64,000 nt of DNA. Source: Methylomonas sp. GTDB taxonomy: Bacteria; Pseudomonadota; Gammaproteobacteria; Methylococcales; Methylomonadaceae. A program made the translations under genes and the position numbers. Shown here piece by piece: positions 42,522-52,701 of this stretch; within the stretch, counting starts at the first letter, position 1, and every line of letters starts with the position of its first letter. Under the pieces are notes generated by a model. That model was not told where the DNA came from, ran no database searches, and saw only the letters and a list, made by a program, of their open reading frames with translations. The stretch covers positions 1 through 64,000 of the forward strand of contig JALSJK010000065.1 of NCBI GenBank assembly GCA_026989395.1, given 5' to 3'.

Positions 42522-43514
42522 ATGAATTATAAAATTATTATTACAGGTCCAGTAGGTTCCGGAAAAACAACAGCCGTTAATTCTTTGACCGGAAGAGATG
42601 CAGCATTAACGGATGCAGTTGTTTCTGATTCTGATTTAGTGACCAAACAACGAAAAAAAACCACTACCGTTGCAATGGATCATGATGTTGTGCAACTTGA
42701 AAATGGTGACACGATCAATGTATTTGGGACACCCGGTCAGGAGCGGTTTGATTTTATGTGGGATATCCTTTCACAGGGTGCGCATGGCATTATTTTGTTA
42801 TTGGATAATACCCGGAATTATCCTTTTCGGGATTTGAAGTTTTATACTGAGCGTTTTTCTAAGCTAATTGGCAGTTCACGTTTGATTTTAGGCATAACAC
42901 ATACCGATATTAATAAAGAATTACCAATCGCAGCCTATCGTAACTGGCTTAATGAAATGGAAATTAAAGCCGAAGTATACGCCGTGGATGCTAGAAAAGG
43001 GGAGCAAGTTCTTGGTTTGTTATACAAACTACTTGATATTGCAAATGAAGACGTCAGTTTGCCAATTGATTTTATTAACCATAGTGCGCAGAAAGCCGAG
43101 TTAAAGAAATTTTCTGTACGAAAGTTTTTGGATAAACTTAAATTTGAAAGTAGGGAGGAATTTTCTGATGCTGCTCAAGAAAGGAGTCTGGAGATTGACA
43201 AAAAAGCGCTTGCCGAGATTGCGAAGGTTGAAGGTGTAAGGGGGATTTCTTTGCTTGATTCCGAAGAATTACTCCATTCAACCATTGATGATGAGCAGTT
43301 AAATGAATTTTTGAAGTTTTTAACGGCAATTGCTGCCGATATTACAGCAGATCTGGATAGAGGAAGCATTCATCGGATTATGTTGCGTTCGCCTGGCGAT
43401 GAAAATGTGACGCTTTTTTTAGAGCAGGAAAAATCCCTTGGGATTATTTCAAAACAACAGAAGTCTATTCAGGTTTTGAGTCAGCAGATTGAAGATAAAC
43501 TCCAATGGCTTTGA
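42522..43514 (+). CDS. MglA-like small GTPase fused to a roadblock/LC7-like domain
   Basis: 330 residues. The N-terminal half (about 1-185) is a small Ras-like GTPase: G1 GPVGSGKTT (9-17), G3 GTPGQERF (69-76), and a G4 position THTD (126-129) instead of NKxD, as in MglA-like bacterial GTPases. The C-terminal part (about 225-330) has a roadblock/LC7 pattern (LAEIAKVEGVRGISLLDSE...). In Myxococcus, MglA and the roadblock protein MglB are separate and set cell polarity. A fusion with its own regulator-type domain is unusual. First gene of an apparent six-gene cluster. Confidence 0.82.
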   Translation: MNYKIIITGPVGSGKTTAVNSLTGRDAALTDAVVSDSDLVTKQRKKTTTVAMDHDVVQLENGDTINVFGTPGQERFDFMWDILSQGAHGIILLLDNTRNYPFRDLKFYTERFSKLIGSSRLILGITHTDINKELPIAAYRNWLNEMEIKAEVYAVDARKGEQVLGLLYKLLDIANEDVSLPIDFINHSAQKAELKKFSVRKFLDKLKFESREEFSDAAQERSLEIDKKALAEIAKVEGVRGISLLDSEELLHSTIDDEQLNEFLKFLTAIAADITADLDRGSIHRIMLRSPGDENVTLFLEQEKSLGIISKQQKSIQVLSQQIEDKLQWL

Positions 43515-43573
43515 TTACAAACAGCTGTCTTATTAAACAAAGCAATACTACTATTCTAAAAAGTACAAGATAG

Positions 43574-44236
43574 ATGTTAGAAAAAATGATGGAGAAAGTT
43601 CTTGAAAACATGAATCGATTGAAAGGCGTTCATCATTCATGCATCTATCATGAAAGTAACGGAATATTTTCCACTTTTCCGGAGGCAAAAGGGGATATTT
43701 TATCGACAGCAAGAAGGGTAGAGCAGGTATTTTCTAGTTTGCAATCCATTGATAAAGCACATGATGAAATCTATTTTTCGGTTGAAGACAAATATTTAGC
43801 CGCATACTTAATGTATGATTCTCACATCGCGCTTTTACTGACTGATAAGAAAATAAATTTCAGTTTGATTCATATGGGGATACGAGCGGCATCAGCGAAA
43901 ATCAGGGCGCATTTGTCACTTAATGCCAATAAACAAACCCACGTAGAAATTAAACCGGCTATCGAGGATAGCGGTGATCCAACGCTTGATTATGCTTTTG
44001 AACAAATATTAACTGAATTGATAAATTATTTTGGTCCCGCCGCAAAATTTGTTTTGGAAGATGCGGTTATTCAATGGGAAACCAAGTATCTTAAAAGTTA
44101 TGACAATATTCCTGAATTATCCGAGATCTTAGCGGAACAATTTGATACTGTTATCGAAAAAAGGACGTTTAAGCAATTTATCAATAAATTACTCAAGGAA
44201 TTACTGAAAAAAGAAAAAAGGAAATTTAATTTATGA
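43574..44236 (+). CDS. Roadblock-like protein with C-terminal helical domain
   Basis: 220 residues. The N-terminal 115 residues resemble a second roadblock/LC7 domain (MNRLKGVHHSCIYHESNG...IALLLTDKKINFSLIHMGIR). The C-terminal region (about 130-215) is helical, with FEQILTELINYFGPAAKFVLEDAV, resembling the short GPxA helical module I know from DUF8082-type proteins. It ends in a Lys-rich tail. Function unknown, but pairing with the upstream GTPase is suggestive. Its stop overlaps the next gene by ATGA. Confidence 0.68.
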   Translation: MLEKMMEKVLENMNRLKGVHHSCIYHESNGIFSTFPEAKGDILSTARRVEQVFSSLQSIDKAHDEIYFSVEDKYLAAYLMYDSHIALLLTDKKINFSLIHMGIRAASAKIRAHLSLNANKQTHVEIKPAIEDSGDPTLDYAFEQILTELINYFGPAAKFVLEDAVIQWETKYLKSYDNIPELSEILAEQFDTVIEKRTFKQFINKLLKELLKKEKRKFNL

Positions 44237-45423
44237 AAGCAAAAAAAATCAGGGATAAATTGCTTCTGGTTTTATTAATTTTTTTACTGGTTCCAACTTT
44301 GATACTAGGCGTTTTTTCATTATTTTTTGGAAGTGGGGCATTAAATAAAGGGAGTTTAACAACCCAAGAGGCTAGGTTAAATCATAGTCTTGCAGAAATT
44401 CACGGTTACCTGGATCAAGTCGATAATGATTTATTTTATCTGAGTGAATCCAGTGCGCTGAATTTATATTTTTCTGCACTTCAATCAGGAAGCGCAGTTA
44501 AACAAAGATTAATGCTGAATAATTTACGCCAAAGCTTCAAGAAATTTTTAAAGCATAAACCGCAATATCTGCAAATCAGTTTTGTTGACTCGGGTGGTAT
44601 GGAAATTGTTCGTCTTGTCAATATTGATGGAAAAATAAGAAATATTTCTGACCCGGAGTTGAAAAGTCAAAGAGAGATGGTTTTTTTTAAACGTACAATC
44701 GGGTTGCAAAAAGGTGATTTGTATATGTCAGAGCTTGAACTAAGTCGACAAGATAACGAAATCGTTAAACCTTTCAAATCAACAGTTCATTATGCCGCTC
44801 CGATATTCGACAAGCTAAATGATCCGCAGGGTATTTTAGTATTTAATGTTGACATGAACAGAATTTTACAAAAAACTACTTCTCAGTTACCTAAAGGAAT
44901 GCAAGCATTTTTAGTTGATTCAGAAGGCTATTATCTTTTTCATCCTGACCCCAAAAAAGCCTGGAGTGGAAAAAATAATCTGGATACCAGGACTGATTTT
45001 TTTTCGGACAAAAATATTTCGAAGGCTGATATCAAAAGTACCTCCGCTATCAATCATTTGAATATTTCGAATGAAGTAATGAGTTATGCCGCTGTTAAAA
45101 TTAACGATAATCAGCGTCAGCTGGGAATACTGTTTCTTACTGCACCGAAAGATATTGTTTTCCAGTTATCAGAGAAGTTTAGTTCTACATTAATGTTGGT
45201 AATGATATTGTTGTTGCTTTTGGGGGCTATTGTTGCTTACTTTATTTCAGGTCTTATGCCAAGGTCGTTGATCGCTTTTTCGGAAGATGTTGAAAAATTA
45301 AGTAAGGGCGATATTGAAAATCCTATTGTTGTAGCTACTAATGATGAGATTGGCGATTTGGCAATTGCAGTTGAACGGTTACGGAAATCAATAAAATTCC
45401 TGATGAAGAAAGTTGAACATTAA
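44233..45423 (+). CDS. Cache-HAMP membrane receptor with no output domain
   Basis: 396 residues: membrane helix (about 9-31), a periplasmic double-Cache-like domain (about 35-310, with YLQISFVDSGGMEIVRLV and FLVDSEGYYLFHPDPKKAW), a second helix (about 318-341) and a HAMP domain (about 342-392). The chain ends right after HAMP, with no kinase, GGDEF or methyl-accepting domain. The next 48 bases hold no remnant of one, so this looks native. Coupling with the upstream roadblock gene (four-base overlap) suggests it signals to the GTPase module. Confidence 0.85.
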   Translation: MKAKKIRDKLLLVLLIFLLVPTLILGVFSLFFGSGALNKGSLTTQEARLNHSLAEIHGYLDQVDNDLFYLSESSALNLYFSALQSGSAVKQRLMLNNLRQSFKKFLKHKPQYLQISFVDSGGMEIVRLVNIDGKIRNISDPELKSQREMVFFKRTIGLQKGDLYMSELELSRQDNEIVKPFKSTVHYAAPIFDKLNDPQGILVFNVDMNRILQKTTSQLPKGMQAFLVDSEGYYLFHPDPKKAWSGKNNLDTRTDFFSDKNISKADIKSTSAINHLNISNEVMSYAAVKINDNQRQLGILFLTAPKDIVFQLSEKFSSTLMLVMILLLLLGAIVAYFISGLMPRSLIAFSEDVEKLSKGDIENPIVVATNDEIGDLAIAVERLRKSIKFLMKKVEH

Positions 45424-45471
45424 TATTACTTTTTGGCATAAATTGATAAATTAAATAGAGGACCAGTATTC

Positions 45472-45777
45472 ATGAAATACCTCAAAAAACTATTGTTATA
45501 TATCCCGTTGATTTGGGTTCTTACTGGTTGTCAGCAAAGTGACACTGAAAAACAGTCGGATAGACAAGCTGAAGCCTCACAACAGCAAGCTGCGGATGAT
45601 GAGAATAAAGAAACAGCTTCAACTAAGGTGATACCATCCGTAGATGAACAACCAGATCAGCCTCTGAGTATTGATGAATTTAATGATGCGATTTATGAAG
45701 TTGTTCAGGATTCAATTCAGGACGCCGTTGAAAATGCTGTAGAAGATGAAGTGACTAAAGAGGAGCAACAAAAATGA
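45472..45777 (+). CDS. Small acidic lipoprotein
   Basis: A 101-residue predicted lipoprotein with lipobox VLTGC (Cys20) followed by a Gln/Asp/Glu-rich disordered stretch and a helical acidic C-terminus (DEFNDAIYEVVQDSIQDAVE). I recognise no family. GAGG precedes the ATG. It overlaps the rhodanese gene by ATGA, so the two are translationally coupled. Confidence 0.7.
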   Translation: MKYLKKLLLYIPLIWVLTGCQQSDTEKQSDRQAEASQQQAADDENKETASTKVIPSVDEQPDQPLSIDEFNDAIYEVVQDSIQDAVENAVEDEVTKEEQQK

Positions 45778-46409
45778 AAACAGTATTAATTACATTATTG
45801 ATATTAACTAGCTCATGGATAGTTCAAGCTGAAGACGAAATAAAGATAAAAATTACTGCTGATCTTCCTTATCTTGATGTCAGACATAATGGCAAGATTG
45901 TCAGAATCATGAGAATTCAGGATCCTGAACATCGTTTAAGTAACAGCTATGCTAAAACATCCAGGCCTTGTCCGCCGTTTTGTGTCCATCCTATCAAGCT
46001 CACAGATAACGTACAGACAGTGGGAGTGTTGGAGTTATTGGATTTTCTGGATAATCAAGTTAAAAAAGGCAAGGGAGCTTTAGTCGATGCCAGATTGCCT
46101 CAGTGGTACGAAAAAGGCACTATTCCCGGCTCTGTAAACATCCCTTTTCCTATTTTGACAGCTGGAACTGATAATCCACATACGGCTCGAATTCTCAAAC
46201 TCTTGGGAGGCAAGCAAAGCAAAGACGGTAAATGGAATTTCGAAAATGCCCGTGAATTAATGCTTTATTGTAATGGTTTATGGTGCGGACAGTCGACCAG
46301 AGCAATCATGGCTCTTATTAAAATTGGATATCCGGAAAACAAGTTGTTTTGGTATCGTGGTGGCATGCAAGATTGGCAGTTGTTAGGTTTAACAACGGTT
46401 ATTCCTTAA
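45774..46409 (+). CDS. Periplasmic rhodanese-like protein
   Basis: 211 residues with a signal peptide (about 1-19, VQA) and a rhodanese domain (about 85-211). The active-site loop is CNGLWCGQS, with the catalytic Cys in usual position. VDARLPQWYEKGTIPGSVNIPF is the preceding CH2A region. A second pair, CPPFC, sits near residue 65, in a strand-rich N-terminal extension. A sulfur-transfer or thiol-redox role in the periplasm is inferred. In the GTPase-Cache cluster, followed by the LysM gene. Confidence 0.85.
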   Translation: MKTVLITLLILTSSWIVQAEDEIKIKITADLPYLDVRHNGKIVRIMRIQDPEHRLSNSYAKTSRPCPPFCVHPIKLTDNVQTVGVLELLDFLDNQVKKGKGALVDARLPQWYEKGTIPGSVNIPFPILTAGTDNPHTARILKLLGGKQSKDGKWNFENARELMLYCNGLWCGQSTRAIMALIKIGYPENKLFWYRGGMQDWQLLGLTTVIP

Positions 46410-46436
46410 ATTAAAGAGATACCAAAGAGGTTTGTC

Positions 46437-47144
46437 ATGAAAACATTAATCAAACTTTTGATTCTGTTTGCCGCTCTGCCAGTTATTGCGGATACACCGG
46501 ATCCTTATATTGAGGCTTTGAGTAACGAGGCTAATAAAACCAAAATGAAACCTTCCCAAGTTATTGTGACAGATAATGAACCTGAACCTGGTGTTGTTCT
46601 TGATGAGCCTGTTGATGAATTAGCCGAAAAAATAAGCGATCAGCTGGAAGTTATTCTCACCGGTAAAACCAGTAAAAAGCACAAACAAAAAAAATTGGCC
46701 GAGGTTATTTCTTCTGGAGTTAAGGAAGGGCGTAAAATTGACGAGATTCATGGTATTGTTCGCCAGGCAATGGCTGAATTAAGGGGAAAAGAAGAACTGA
46801 ATATTCAACCGGAGGTAGCTGAATATGCTGAAAAAGTTGTCAATGATATAGTGACTACCAGTAAAAATTTGGCGCGAGGCGATCAAAATGATCCTTATAT
46901 TAAGGCGCTTAATGCGGAAGTGAGTGGAACAACACTGGATGATGACAGTGACAAAAATATTGAAAAAAAACAGTCGCAACGGCAGCAGACCGTTGTAGTG
47001 CTAAAGGGGGACTCATTATATAAAATAGCAAAGAAGATTTATGGCTCTGGTGAAAAATATATGATGTTATTTAATGCAAACAGAGATAAATTAAAGGATC
47101 CAGATCTGATTGAGATTGGTCAGATCCTTAATGTCCCACTTTGA
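46437..47144 (+). CDS. Exported LysM-domain protein with internal repeat
   Basis: 235 residues with a signal peptide (about 1-18). Two related segments follow: TPDPYIEALSNEANKT and NDPYIKALNAEVSGTT. Between them is a helical region (about 55-150). The C-terminal LysM domain (about 186-235, VVLKGDSLYKIAKKIYGSGE...) binds peptidoglycan. GAGG precedes the ATG. Last gene of the cluster, probably anchoring it to the cell wall. Confidence 0.8.
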   Translation: MKTLIKLLILFAALPVIADTPDPYIEALSNEANKTKMKPSQVIVTDNEPEPGVVLDEPVDELAEKISDQLEVILTGKTSKKHKQKKLAEVISSGVKEGRKIDEIHGIVRQAMAELRGKEELNIQPEVAEYAEKVVNDIVTTSKNLARGDQNDPYIKALNAEVSGTTLDDDSDKNIEKKQSQRQQTVVVLKGDSLYKIAKKIYGSGEKYMMLFNANRDKLKDPDLIEIGQILNVPL

Positions 47145-47376: not shown

Positions 47377-49401
47377 ATGAACGGAAACAATCGACTCATT
47401 ATTCAGTTTCTAACCATTCTGGCGGTTTTTTTTAGCCACGCTCACAATGCAATGGCCGATTCAGATGAGCTAATGAGCTTAAGCGTTGAAGACCTTTTGA
47501 ATGTTGAAGTTATTTCCACTGCTAAAAAAGCAAAATCTCTTAATGATTCCCCAGCCGCAATCTTCGTTATTACCGGAGATGATATTAAACGAATTGGCGC
47601 TACCTCCATTCCTGAAGCATTAAGATTAGCGCCGGGTTTGGATGTAGCTCGTATCAATGCCAATAAATGGGCTGTGACTGCCAGAGGCTTTAATGGTCGG
47701 TTTGCTAACAAACTGCTGGTTATGATTGATGGACGAAGCTTGTATACGCGATCATTTGCCGGAGTCTATTGGGAAAATCAGGATGTCATGCTGGAAGATG
47801 TTGAGCGTATCGAAGTTATTAGAGGCCCAGGTGCCACATTGTGGGGTGCTAATGCGGTTAATGGTGTTATTAATATTATTACCAAACATTCAGAAGATAC
47901 TCAGGGTGGTCTGTTGAGTGCAGGCGGTGGAACTGAAGAACAGGGTTTTGGCGCTTTTCGATATGGCTGGAAATTTAATTCCAATACGACTGCACGTGCA
48001 TATTTTCAAGGTTTTAATCGGGATGAATTTCATTCTACATCTGGAGAAAATGCGGGCGATAATTGGAATAAAACTCAGGGAGGTTTCAGAATGGATTCGC
48101 AACTGTCGTTAAAGGATACATTAACCATTCAAGGTGATTTTTTCCAAAGTAATATTCATCAGGCAACAACCGAATTTCAGGTAACTCCGCCGTATAGAAG
48201 AGATTTCGATGAAACGATTGATTCATATGGAGGTAATTTTTTGCTTCGACATCAACGTACCTTTTCTCTAACTTCAGATTACACCTTCCAGTTTTTTTAC
48301 GATTTTTATGAAAGGGATGCCGCCTTTTTAAAAGAGAACCGGCATACTCTGGATTTTGATTTTCAACATCGTTTTGCTTTCCTGGACTGGAATGATGTGA
48401 TCTGGGGGCTTGGATATCGTTTAAATATGGACAATTTTGGGGCGGGTGCAGTAACAAGTGTTTCGCCTGCCAAGCGTAAAGATCAGTTATTCAGTGCTTT
48501 TGTGCAGGATGAAATAACCTTGATAGATGATTATTTATGGTTAACCCTGGGAAGTAAATTTGAACATAACGATTACAGTGGCTTTGAAGTACAACCTACA
48601 GCCAAAATTATGTGGAAGCCACACCATCAACATCGTTTATGGGGGGCTGTTTCAAGAGCAGTAAGAACGCCTTCACGCTTAGAGCATAATACTAAATCAT
48701 TACAATTAGTTAATCCACCCCAGACTTTGCCTGTATCACCCTATTTTTTGCCACCTGTAGCCTTGTCGTTTAATGCAAATAATGCTTTTGAAGCAGAAGA
48801 AGTAATCAGTTATGAAATAGGCTACCGAACCACCTTTATTGAGAATTTGTCGATTGATTTAACGGCTTTTTACAATGACTATAGTAATTTGAGATCGGTA
48901 GAATTAGCGCCAGTTGTTTTTAAGGGCACCTATATTGAACAGCCCTATTTTCTTGCGAATAACCACAAAGTGAAAACTTATGGGTTTGAAATTGCCGCAG
49001 TTTGGCAAATGCTGGATTGGTGGCGTTGGGATGTCAACTACAGTTTATTGAAAACTGACTTCAGCAGCGATAAAGCCAAACTTGAAATAGGTGAAAGTCC
49101 GCAACAGCGAGTTTCTTTACGGAGTACGTTATCTCCGAGAAATGATGTCGATTTAGATGTGTTATTTCGCTATGTTGATAAGAACACAGCATTTGATTTG
49201 AATGGCGAAGATATTATCGGTGACTATGTTTCATTGGATATTCGCTTGGCTTGGCGGCCAGTCGAAGGGATCGAGTTGTCATTGGTTGGACAGAATTTGT
49301 TGGCTGAACATCATCAGGAATATGTTCAGGAAACTTCAATAACACAGACGGAAATTGACCGTGGCGTCTACGGAAAAATAACCTGGCAATTCGGGCAATA
49401 A
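47377..49401 (+). CDS. TonB-dependent outer-membrane receptor
   Basis: 674 residues with a signal peptide (cleavage near A27), a plug domain (about 45-165: FVITGDDIKRIGATSIPEALRLAPG, RGFNGRFANKLLVMIDGRSLY, VERIEVIRGPGATLWGANAVNGVINIITK) and a C-terminal beta-barrel ending ITWQFGQ. Siderophore, vitamin and carbohydrate receptors share this fold; the substrate cannot be told. It heads an operon with a YfiR protein, a hybrid kinase and a GGDEF-EAL protein, which suggests a signalling or sensing function. Confidence 0.9.
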   Translation: MNGNNRLIIQFLTILAVFFSHAHNAMADSDELMSLSVEDLLNVEVISTAKKAKSLNDSPAAIFVITGDDIKRIGATSIPEALRLAPGLDVARINANKWAVTARGFNGRFANKLLVMIDGRSLYTRSFAGVYWENQDVMLEDVERIEVIRGPGATLWGANAVNGVINIITKHSEDTQGGLLSAGGGTEEQGFGAFRYGWKFNSNTTARAYFQGFNRDEFHSTSGENAGDNWNKTQGGFRMDSQLSLKDTLTIQGDFFQSNIHQATTEFQVTPPYRRDFDETIDSYGGNFLLRHQRTFSLTSDYTFQFFYDFYERDAAFLKENRHTLDFDFQHRFAFLDWNDVIWGLGYRLNMDNFGAGAVTSVSPAKRKDQLFSAFVQDEITLIDDYLWLTLGSKFEHNDYSGFEVQPTAKIMWKPHHQHRLWGAVSRAVRTPSRLEHNTKSLQLVNPPQTLPVSPYFLPPVALSFNANNAFEAEEVISYEIGYRTTFIENLSIDLTAFYNDYSNLRSVELAPVVFKGTYIEQPYFLANNHKVKTYGFEIAAVWQMLDWWRWDVNYSLLKTDFSSDKAKLEIGESPQQRVSLRSTLSPRNDVDLDVLFRYVDKNTAFDLNGEDIIGDYVSLDIRLAWRPVEGIELSLVGQNLLAEHHQEYVQETSITQTEIDRGVYGKITWQFGQ

Positions 49402-49413
49402 CGCCCAGTATTA

Positions 49414-49959
49414 ATGCTGAACATTAACAGCAAAAAAACGGCGATTCTGTGGGCGTTACTGTGTTTTGGTTTACTGAAACCATTATATGCCAAACCAGTT
49501 GATAAACAATCCCTTCTAGCAGCGTTGACACTGAATCTTGCCCGGTTTACCACATGGCCTGATTTGGTAAATCCGATTTTGAATGTGTGTGTCATTGGTA
49601 ATAATGTTGTACAGGCATCATTTTCCAATTTGAACGTTAAAACCATCAATGGCAAACAGGTGCGCTTTCTAAATCGTTCACGTCTTAGGCCATTGGAACA
49701 TTGCCAGGTGATTTATTTTGGCGACTTGAAAAAAAATCTGGTCAGGCAAGCCTTAATATCTATTATGGGTCAGAATGCTTTAACAATCGGGGAAGGGGTG
49801 GAATTTCTTAAAGCTGGAGGAATGGTTAGTTTGGAACAGCAAGGAGGAAAAATGCAATTAAATATCAATTTGTCGGCAGTGCAACAAACTGGTTTAGTGG
49901 TGAGCTCAAGGATATTAAATTTAGCCACCATTTTTGAGTTTCCAGCTAATATGGAATAA
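49414..49959 (+). CDS. YfiR family periplasmic protein
   Basis: 181 residues, signal peptide to about A26, then a YfiR/DUF4154 domain: LTLNLARFTTWPDL, LNVCVIGNN, VRFLNRSRLRPLEHCQVIYFG, and the conserved LTIGEGVEFLKAGGMVSL. Pseudomonas YfiR represses the diguanylate cyclase YfiN; the domain has cysteines that respond to redox. Here it lies 12 bp after the TonB receptor and 12 bp before a CHASE8-type hybrid kinase, so it may regulate that kinase instead. Confidence 0.92.
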   Translation: MLNINSKKTAILWALLCFGLLKPLYAKPVDKQSLLAALTLNLARFTTWPDLVNPILNVCVIGNNVVQASFSNLNVKTINGKQVRFLNRSRLRPLEHCQVIYFGDLKKNLVRQALISIMGQNALTIGEGVEFLKAGGMVSLEQQGGKMQLNINLSAVQQTGLVVSSRILNLATIFEFPANME

Positions 49960-49971
49960 GGTGATGAAAAT

Positions 49972-52701
49972 ATGACCAGCTTTACTAACGCATCAATAAA
50001 AGACAAACTCCGTATACTCTTGAGCATAAGTATTCTATTGATGTTATTAATTTCTGGCAGCATTTTGATGCTAAATTCGTTTCTTTCCAATCGCTCTGTA
50101 TTGAACAATGAAGCTAACGCATTGGCTGAAATTACCACCTTGGCAATTACACCCGCGCTGATATTTGATAACCCATCAGATGCCCAGCAAACTTTGGATA
50201 CGCTAAAAGCGCATAAGGATATTATTTATGCGGCTGTGTTAAAACCTAATCAACTAAAGCCTTTTGCATATTATCAACGTGAAGGCGACTGGCAAATACC
50301 TGAAAATGAAATAACCCAATCCGGTCTTTGTCAAGATCATCAATTTTCATTGACTTATCTCAGTGTTTGCAAACCATTGGTTCTAGACGATGTTAACTGG
50401 GGCAAGATGGTGTTGGTCATTAGCTTGCATGATATTTATCAACGTCTGGGTAGGGAATTGGCCATTGCAATATGTGGTTTGTTAATAGCTTCCTGGTTGA
50501 TTTTTCTGGTTATGGAGCGGTTTGCCAAAAAATTCAGTGATCCGATTCTGGAATTATTGGCCATTAGCGAGGATGTTCGAAAATCAGGAAAATATGAGAA
50601 ACGTGCAACCATTCAATCATCGGATGAAATTGGTCGTTTGGGGCAGGCATTCAATAATATGCTGGACAAAATTCAGCATTGGAATAATGCCTTGCGGCAT
50701 CAAAAGGAAAATCTGGAAGAATTGGTGGAAGAACGAACCAGAGATTTGGTCGAATCAAAAAATAAGGCATTAATGCTAGCTGATCAGGCTCAAAAAGCCA
50801 GCCAGGCAAAATCCGAATTTTTATCAGTTATGAGTCATGAGATCCGTACGCCACTGAATGCAATCATTGGTTATTCGGATTTACTGAAAGAATCACATCT
50901 TGATCAACAACAAAGTGACTACGTTAATATTATTAATCAATCAGGAAATTCCTTATTAAGTCAAATTAACGATATTCTTGATTTTTCAAAAATTGAAGCA
51001 GGCAAAATGGAAGTAGATCTGGTTTGGTTTGATGTTTATGATTTATTGAACACGGTCCTGTCTAGTAACCGTCATGCCAGTAGCAGTAAGTCCTTATTAT
51101 TAGATCATCAGGTCGATACCGATTTGCCGCATTTTTTGTATGGTGATGAGCAGAAAATCCGGCAAATTTTACATAACTTGTTAAATAATTCCATCAAATT
51201 TACCGAACGTGGCGCTGTTTCACTAACAGTAAAAACCCAAAAGACTGGGCATGATGTCTGCCAGCTTGTTATTACTGTCAAGGATACCGGAATCGGAATT
51301 TCCAAAGAAAAGCAAGCAGCATTATTCGAGCCATTTACTCAGGCAGATGCATCAAACACCCGAAAATACGGTGGCACTGGATTGGGTTTGGCGATCGTAA
51401 AAAAAATGGTGACCTTATTGGGTGGTGAGATTTGTTTTCAAAGCATAGAAGGATTGGGAACAGAATTTGTTCTAAAATTGCCACTGACAATTACTGCACC
51501 TGAATCTCAACAAAGACCGGTTGAATCTCCTTTAATTGCATTGTTTGATGATCAACCGGAATCAGCATTTGCTTTGCAACTAAAACAACTCGACTACCAG
51601 GTCGAAGTGATTCTTCCCGCGACTGCAAAATCTTTACTGCAACAACCGGATTTAATAAAAAAATATACTCTGTTGCTTTTCAGCCATGCCAGTATTGAGC
51701 AAGCGATTTATTGGCAGCAACAGAAAACTAATAACGATCAAAAAACCATTGCAGCCTATTGCATAGAAGACAAAGCCGGGAATGAAGAGCTAAAGCAACT
51801 GACAAATATGGCATTTATTCAAATCAGTCATGACAATCTGCACATGGTTGAACAGCTTAATCGATTAATTAATGCAGATTTGTCGGATATTGTTTTTAGT
51901 GAAATTGCTGGCCAGACCAGCGTGTTAATTGTTGAAGATAATCCGGTCAATATGTTAATGGCCCAGACCATGCTCAAACAGACTGGTTTTAAAATACACG
52001 CAGCTTCTAATGGACAAATTGCTGTTGATGTTTACAAGACCAATGAATTGGATTTAATTTTGATGGATTGCCAAATGCCCGTTATGGATGGCTTTACGGC
52101 GAGCAGGGAGATTCGCGAACTGGAAAAACAAAGTGGCAGACATATTCCAATTATAGCTTTAACGGCTAATGCCTTTAAGGAAGATAAAGAAGCATGCCTT
52201 GCAGCAGGTATGGATGATTTTCTAAGTAAGCCATTCAAGAAAAAACAATTGTTGGATGTTATGGAACAATGGCTGGCAGTCGATGGTATTCAGCAAGAAA
52301 TTTACAGCGAAAATGAATTGTCGAACGAAGATGTTTTGGATGAAAACATGATTGAAGAGCTAATGGCTATGGACGAAGATAATTCAAAACAATTCATTCG
52401 TCAGATCAGTGCCACCTTCTTTGAAAATGCCGAACAGGTTTTTCAACAAATAGAGATGGCCTTGGCAAAAAAATCATGTGACATTATTGCTAAGTGCGCC
52501 CATCAATTAAAGTCCAGCAGCATGAATGTTGCAGCCAAAAAATTATCCGGGTTGTTCAAAGAACTTGAAAATGCCGCATCCCATAAAGAATTTCTGGAGG
52601 CGCAAACATTGTGGCAGACAATTAACCAGGAATACCAATATGTTGTAAAGGCTTATGACAACCTATTAATGGATGAAGCGAGTTGCGAAGAAAATGGATA
52701 A
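49972..52701 (+). CDS. Hybrid sensor histidine kinase with receiver and HPt domains
   Basis: 909 residues. Two membrane helices (about 16-38 and 164-186) bracket a CHASE8-like periplasmic sensor. HAMP follows, then HisKA with phospho-acceptor His289 (SHEIRTP), a HATPase domain ([22 protein letters not shown]), a degenerate receiver-like segment (about 520-635), a true receiver with Asp699 ([11 protein letters not shown]), and an HPt domain with His844 (AHQLKSSS). This is a full phosphorelay in one chain, well suited to phosphorylate the receiver of the next protein. It overlaps that gene by eight bases. Confidence 0.93.

Follow-up and report, generated by a model that had tools for sequence, protein, structure and literature searches.

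The 64,000-nucleotide stretch of Methylomonas sp. DNA analyzed here (the window) carries a conserved operon of six genes (42522-47144, forward strand) that probably encodes a transmembrane G-protein switch, in which the HAMP domain of a membrane receptor would act on a separate adaptor protein through a helical module with a G-P-x-A motif (GPxA), and the adaptor would in turn act through a pair of roadblock domains on a Ras-like GTPase. Domain content, predicted folds, and the conservation of gene order come from computation, as does the finding that receptors ending at HAMP accompany the GPxA module in many genomes; gene context and the predicted folds suggest the coupling, with contacts, direction, ligand, and output that we infer. 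In design, the operon resembles a bacterial counterpart of receptor-driven G-protein signaling.

The six open reading frames run in a single direction, all start with ATG, and are separated by 59, −4, 48, −4, and 27 bp, the two 4-bp overlaps lying at 44233-44236 (genes 2/3) and 45774-45777 (genes 4/5). This layout is as given in a preliminary description made from the sequence alone, which had pointed to six same-strand genes with short gaps and two overlaps. Scans for promoters and terminators found no enrichment over shuffled sequence. A NUDIX gene lies upstream, and a TonB receptor/YfiR/hybrid-kinase group lies downstream; among the loci compared, both flanks recur in the nearest relative only, and for this reason we exclude them from the system. 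The downstream genes (47377-52701, directly 3' of gene 6) code for a TonB-dependent receptor, a YfiR-like protein, and a hybrid histidine kinase and are seemingly an ordinary separate group.

The same gene order was found in several other genomes, a co-occurrence that the preliminary description had proposed to look for. All six genes are kept in order in L035, L036, L037, L038, L042, and L050, with gene 4 of the relatives located by hand and recognized by its position and C-terminal helix, and the order is maintained in Thiotrichaceae and Leucothrix at approximately 30-60% identity. Genes 1 to 3, coding for the GTPase-roadblock protein, the adaptor, and the Cache receptor, also stand together, in the G411 order, in a separate family, where the stretch compared ends before the genes further downstream. 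At the other extreme, L048 and L049 contain gene 1 alone.

Gene 1 (42522..43514, forward strand) encodes an MglA-like small GTPase with a C-terminal roadblock domain, an assignment drawn from Pfam Roc/Ras matches, Robl_LC7 matches in homologs, an AlphaFold2 model, and Foldseek. Residues 1-174 form a Ras/Roc-type GTPase domain by both Pfam and structure comparison, followed by a linker of about 50 residues (aa ~177-222) modeled with very low confidence, so the placement of the two domains relative to each other in the model is meaningless. The roadblock domain (aa 223-330; 43188..43511) matches Robl_LC7 in 15 of 19 homologs, with a best E value of 4.5e-7, while the window copy scores below the cut-off of 23 (15.4 bits, E 0.015). 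The fusion of an MglA-like GTPase with a roadblock domain, as first described, is thus borne out for the family, with the window copy sub-cut-off. A profile of the C-terminal domain searched against the PDB matched mostly roadblock chains, including dynein roadblock and Asgard Robl. The best Foldseek matches of the gene 1 model were Gtr1/Gtr2, LokiRagO, and RagA/C, and the structure-comparison rows span the GTPase domain only, so their Z scores are uninformative on the roadblock part.

The distribution of gene 1 is narrow. Full-length matches occur in only 3 genomes among 101 relatives, all of the same genus as the window, and the fused C-terminal domain was found in 2 of 369 gammaproteobacterial genomes and in 1 of 398 in another draw, both counts including the window's own genome. 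In a tree of GTPase domains, fused and stand-alone groups are separate (rows L024 and L112 being ordinary stand-alone GTPases, not fusions), and the window protein groups with the Thiotrichaceae sequences L033 and L035 (support 99/95), while L005, from a second genome of the window's genus, branches elsewhere. This placement, taken with the narrow distribution, suggests that the fused gene was gained horizontally. In a close relative (L034:8001-8998, from same-genus genome G001), the gene 1 homolog is split into 2 ORFs in the linker, which may reflect an error in sequencing or a genuine interruption of the gene.

Gene 2 (43574..44236, forward strand) encodes the putative adaptor, in which the AlphaFold2 fold and a module profile delimit an N-terminal roadblock domain (aa 1-120) and the C-terminal helical GPxA module (aa 136-220). 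The protein matches no Pfam or NCBIfam family, and Robl_LC7 matches none of 17 members. Its AlphaFold2 model has a mean pLDDT of 87, and residues 1-118 of this predicted model superpose on MglB (Z 14.5, 2.2 A), with matches to other roadblock structures as well; these structure-comparison rows span residues 1-120, that is, the part without the GPxA module. Profile comparison of the gene 1 and gene 2 roadblock domains gave a weak match (hhalign probability 21), and it is therefore by predicted fold that the N-terminal domain of gene 2 is a roadblock. Gene 2 had been proposed as a second roadblock-like protein, and the predicted fold agrees where Pfam misses it.

Gene 3 (44233..45423, forward strand) encodes a receptor with a Pfam dCache_1 domain, two transmembrane (TM) segments, and a HAMP domain (45289..45393), and it ends approximately 9 residues past HAMP. 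The window HAMP is weak, at 21.6 bits against a cut-off of 25, and clear in homologs, with L033 and L044 exceeding the cut-off. Domain scans found no kinase, MCP, GGDEF, or other output domain, in line with the first reading of the gene as a Cache-HAMP receptor that lacks an output. The dCache domain of the window receptor has no heme motif.

How a receptor of this kind could act is suggested by the GPxA module (43979..44233, forward strand), which we identified by profile search and a neighbor survey and propose as a receptor-coupling module. It comprises the last ~80 residues of gene 2, forms three helices in the model, and has no family in Pfam or NCBIfam. Of the 369 Gammaproteobacteria sampled, 32 matched the module profile, counting the genome of the window, and few genomes of the phylum draw did so. 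Domain scans of 27 carriers identified 17 as Ser/Thr kinases and 6 as class III nucleotide cyclases; the module lies mostly at the C-terminal end, and many carriers have two copies.

We surveyed 43 GPxA regions outside the operon, 36 from the 369-genome search and 7 found later. In 38 of the 43, a same-strand ORF lies at most 200 bp from the module gene and has a HAMP match ending 0-13 residues before its stop codon, as scored with a custom HAMP profile built in part from a few of the same receptors; CxxCH occurs in 29 of these 38 ORFs. Pfam, which is independent of the custom profile, finds HAMP in 25 of 25 receptors adjoining GPxA genes and a Tll0287-like domain in 18; none of the 25 matched an output domain. 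A single further HAMP ORF occurs elsewhere in the 332 kb of GPxA regions, and one occurs in 855 kb of comparison loci, which are the surroundings of stand-alone GTPases and not a random genome sample. All 7 of the later regions, 4 from plasmids and 3 from the phylum draw, have a HAMP-ended neighbor, and the four named plasmid records carry a DUF3365 and kinase pair annotated as such by others. Five regions have no such neighbor; L161, L181, and L185 are contig ends or fragments, and L178 and L190 have full flanks. In three plasmid regions from Caballeronia and Skermanella (L195, L196, L198), the DUF3365 receptor and module kinase adjoin type VI secretion genes. At two further loci (L163:4017-7967 and L173:3100-7094), one heme Cache-HAMP receptor is flanked by two module genes, of kinase size and cyclase size respectively, which looks like a receptor common to both.

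We consider the chances about even that GPxA marks an undescribed trans-HAMP class, in which output-less two-TM receptors, many with heme Cache domains, would act on separate kinases, cyclases, and a roadblock-regulated GTPase. We found no paper describing the module in a literature search mostly without subscription journals, so the claim of novelty is limited to the searchable literature. The closest receptors already in print are sCache_heme (DUF3365/Tll0287) HAMP proteins, which bind NO (PMC12889525). These are likewise output-less two-TM HAMP receptors (Target 2 of that paper is of this build); the build matches that of most GPxA partners, and the family adjoins the module in most loci. 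The passages of PMC12889525 available name no trans partner, and the window receptor differs in its dCache domain.

If the operon is a switch, then the Cache domain of gene 3 would read a periplasmic signal, and the HAMP domain, which is almost the entire cytoplasmic part, would change state and dock in trans onto the GPxA helices of gene 2, in place of driving a fused enzyme. Gene 1 contains its own roadblock domain, with which the predicted one of gene 2 would pair; together they would control, in the manner of a GAP or GEF, whether the MglA-like GTPase holds GTP or GDP. The GAP or GEF activity of gene 2 is assumed from the precedents of MglB and the actinobacterial conservons; a regulatory role seems plausible because GAP activity of the roadblock protein was demonstrated in a mycobacterial conservon-type system, whose CvnC homolog is likely a GEF (PMC13343842). 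GTP-bound gene 1 would then act on a target outside the cluster or on one of the envelope proteins, and the lipoprotein, rhodanese, and LysM protein may be envelope partners that condition the signal or tie the complex to the wall. The preliminary description suggested that the receptor may signal directly to the roadblock/GTPase pair. The idea of signaling is supported here, but the likely contact is the GPxA module of gene 2 rather than the roadblock, because elsewhere the module is found on kinases and cyclases beside HAMP-ended receptors.

The variant loci bear on this switch reading in both directions. In Thiothrix L044, the Cache protein lacks HAMP, which is instead on a separate Tll0287-HAMP (heme-Cache) receptor, and in L047, where genes 1 and 2 occur with no receptor nearby, gene 2 is without the GPxA module; both arrangements favor the switch. 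Counting against it are L045 and L046, which also have genes 1 and 2 only and no adjacent receptor but keep the module, L043, which lacks the receptor and keeps the rest, and the fully flanked GPxA regions L178 and L190, as do the window HAMP and roadblock scores under the Pfam cut-offs. Neighbors in an operon may also be co-regulated without contact. The broadest form of this objection, that the six genes are a co-expressed neighborhood with no common pathway, draws on the fact that operon membership by itself is no proof of contact, but it seems very improbable to us given that gene order is kept between families at low identity and that the module and receptor are paired in 38 of 43 other regions.

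The exported products allow another reading. Gene 4 (45472..45777, forward strand) encodes a small lipoprotein. Its C-terminal helix (DSIQDAVENAVEDEV) is found again in relatives, and in some of them the N-terminus resembles a single TM anchor instead. Domain matches identify gene 5 (45774..46409, forward strand) as an exported rhodanese with a CPPFC motif and a CNGLWC active-site loop, and gene 6 (46437..47144, forward strand) as an exported protein with a C-terminal LysM domain. These genes, which the preliminary description took as a putative link to the wall or redox state, co-occur in order in most members, and the rhodanese and the receptor are each absent from some. The operon could then be an envelope sensor of sulfur or redox stress, with the rhodanese and lipoprotein delivering the signal and the GTPase a mere secondary modulator, and the conservation of the rhodanese where it is present (~54-65% identity across loci, with CPPFC in 8 of 8 relatives compared) fits this idea. 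We judge it quite unlikely, since L040 lacks the rhodanese and none was found in L044, while both retain the GTPase, gene 2, and a receptor. Genes 1 to 3 also stand together in the G411 order, in a stretch that ends before the genes further downstream.

In the three loci with genes 1 and 2 only, all from MAGs (L045:6600-7835, L046:6089-7324, and L047:6365-7810), an FtsZ family gene with Tubulin and FtsZ_C domains and an N-terminal extension precedes the GTPase-roadblock gene by ~150 bp. This neighbor, the MglA-type GTPase domain of gene 1, and the presence of the operon in Leucothrix and one Thiothrix, carriers that include filamentous or gliding organisms, would suit a polarity or motility module, in which the GTPase/roadblock pair would place envelope or motility machinery as MglA/MglB do, with the receptor and LysM protein as markers of a pole or septum. 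The neighbors listed for the operon loci include no motility gene, however, and the gene 2 module is usually associated with membrane receptors and enzymes, which makes a polarity role unlikely.

The preliminary description had known of no system with such a set of genes, but comparable combinations of receptor, roadblock, and GTPase exist. The closest known system is that of the actinobacterial conservons, or AGPS (CvnA-D; Mfp system), in which a receptor is thought to act on a GTPase via roadblock and GEF-like partners and in which a membrane receptor, a roadblock protein, and an MglA-like small GTPase likewise share one operon (PMC13343842, PMC4316618). CvnA is histidine-kinase-like, whereas the window receptor consists of Cache and HAMP and stops at HAMP, and the GTPase and roadblock are separate genes in conservons but fused in gene 1. 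The operon would work like a conservon, yet lacks these two defining features. No CvnC-type family match was found in the window operon, which adds the GPxA module and the exported lipoprotein, rhodanese, and LysM genes.

With MglA/MglB pairs, the operon shares roadblock partners and a GTPase domain ~45-52% identical to stand-alone MglA-like proteins of the same and related genomes; the fusion, the receptor, and the GPxA module set it apart. Contig C1 of the window's own genome carries a stand-alone MglA-like GTPase operon (L002:64-3138) with roadblock-like, PAS-like, and PhnD-like proteins, as identified by eye, and comparable operons are present in loci from Methylococcales and Thiotrichaceae. 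We rejected it as an instance of the same system since its partners differ, namely a receiver-like protein and roadblock-like genes, and from the gene-context description in PMC4316618 we read the stand-alone group as the Group 3 MglA of that paper.

The fusion itself was first taken as a departure from known systems, but Rag/Gtr and Asgard proteins already provide examples of a GTPase fused to a roadblock domain (PMC10933270). Rag/Gtr with Ragulator and the Asgard GTPase-RB fusions resemble the window system, in design only, in having a C-terminal roadblock after the GTPase and further roadblock proteins. By sequence identity, the closest proteins to the window GTPase domain are of the bacterial MglA type, the tree of GTPase domains having been built without Rag sequences; the linker of gene 1 spans ~50 residues, and the receptor is bacterial; the Rag-like layout of gene 1 is likely convergent.

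It is not obvious how a HAMP receptor without an output domain acts. If GPxA is their docking site, then many of them, including the heme Cache receptors of the NO-binding family, would gain a predicted effector. The window operon would then represent the GPxA scheme in G-protein form and provide a bacterial example of the Rag layout, and receptor control of a Ras-like GTPase would become testable with a few small proteins.
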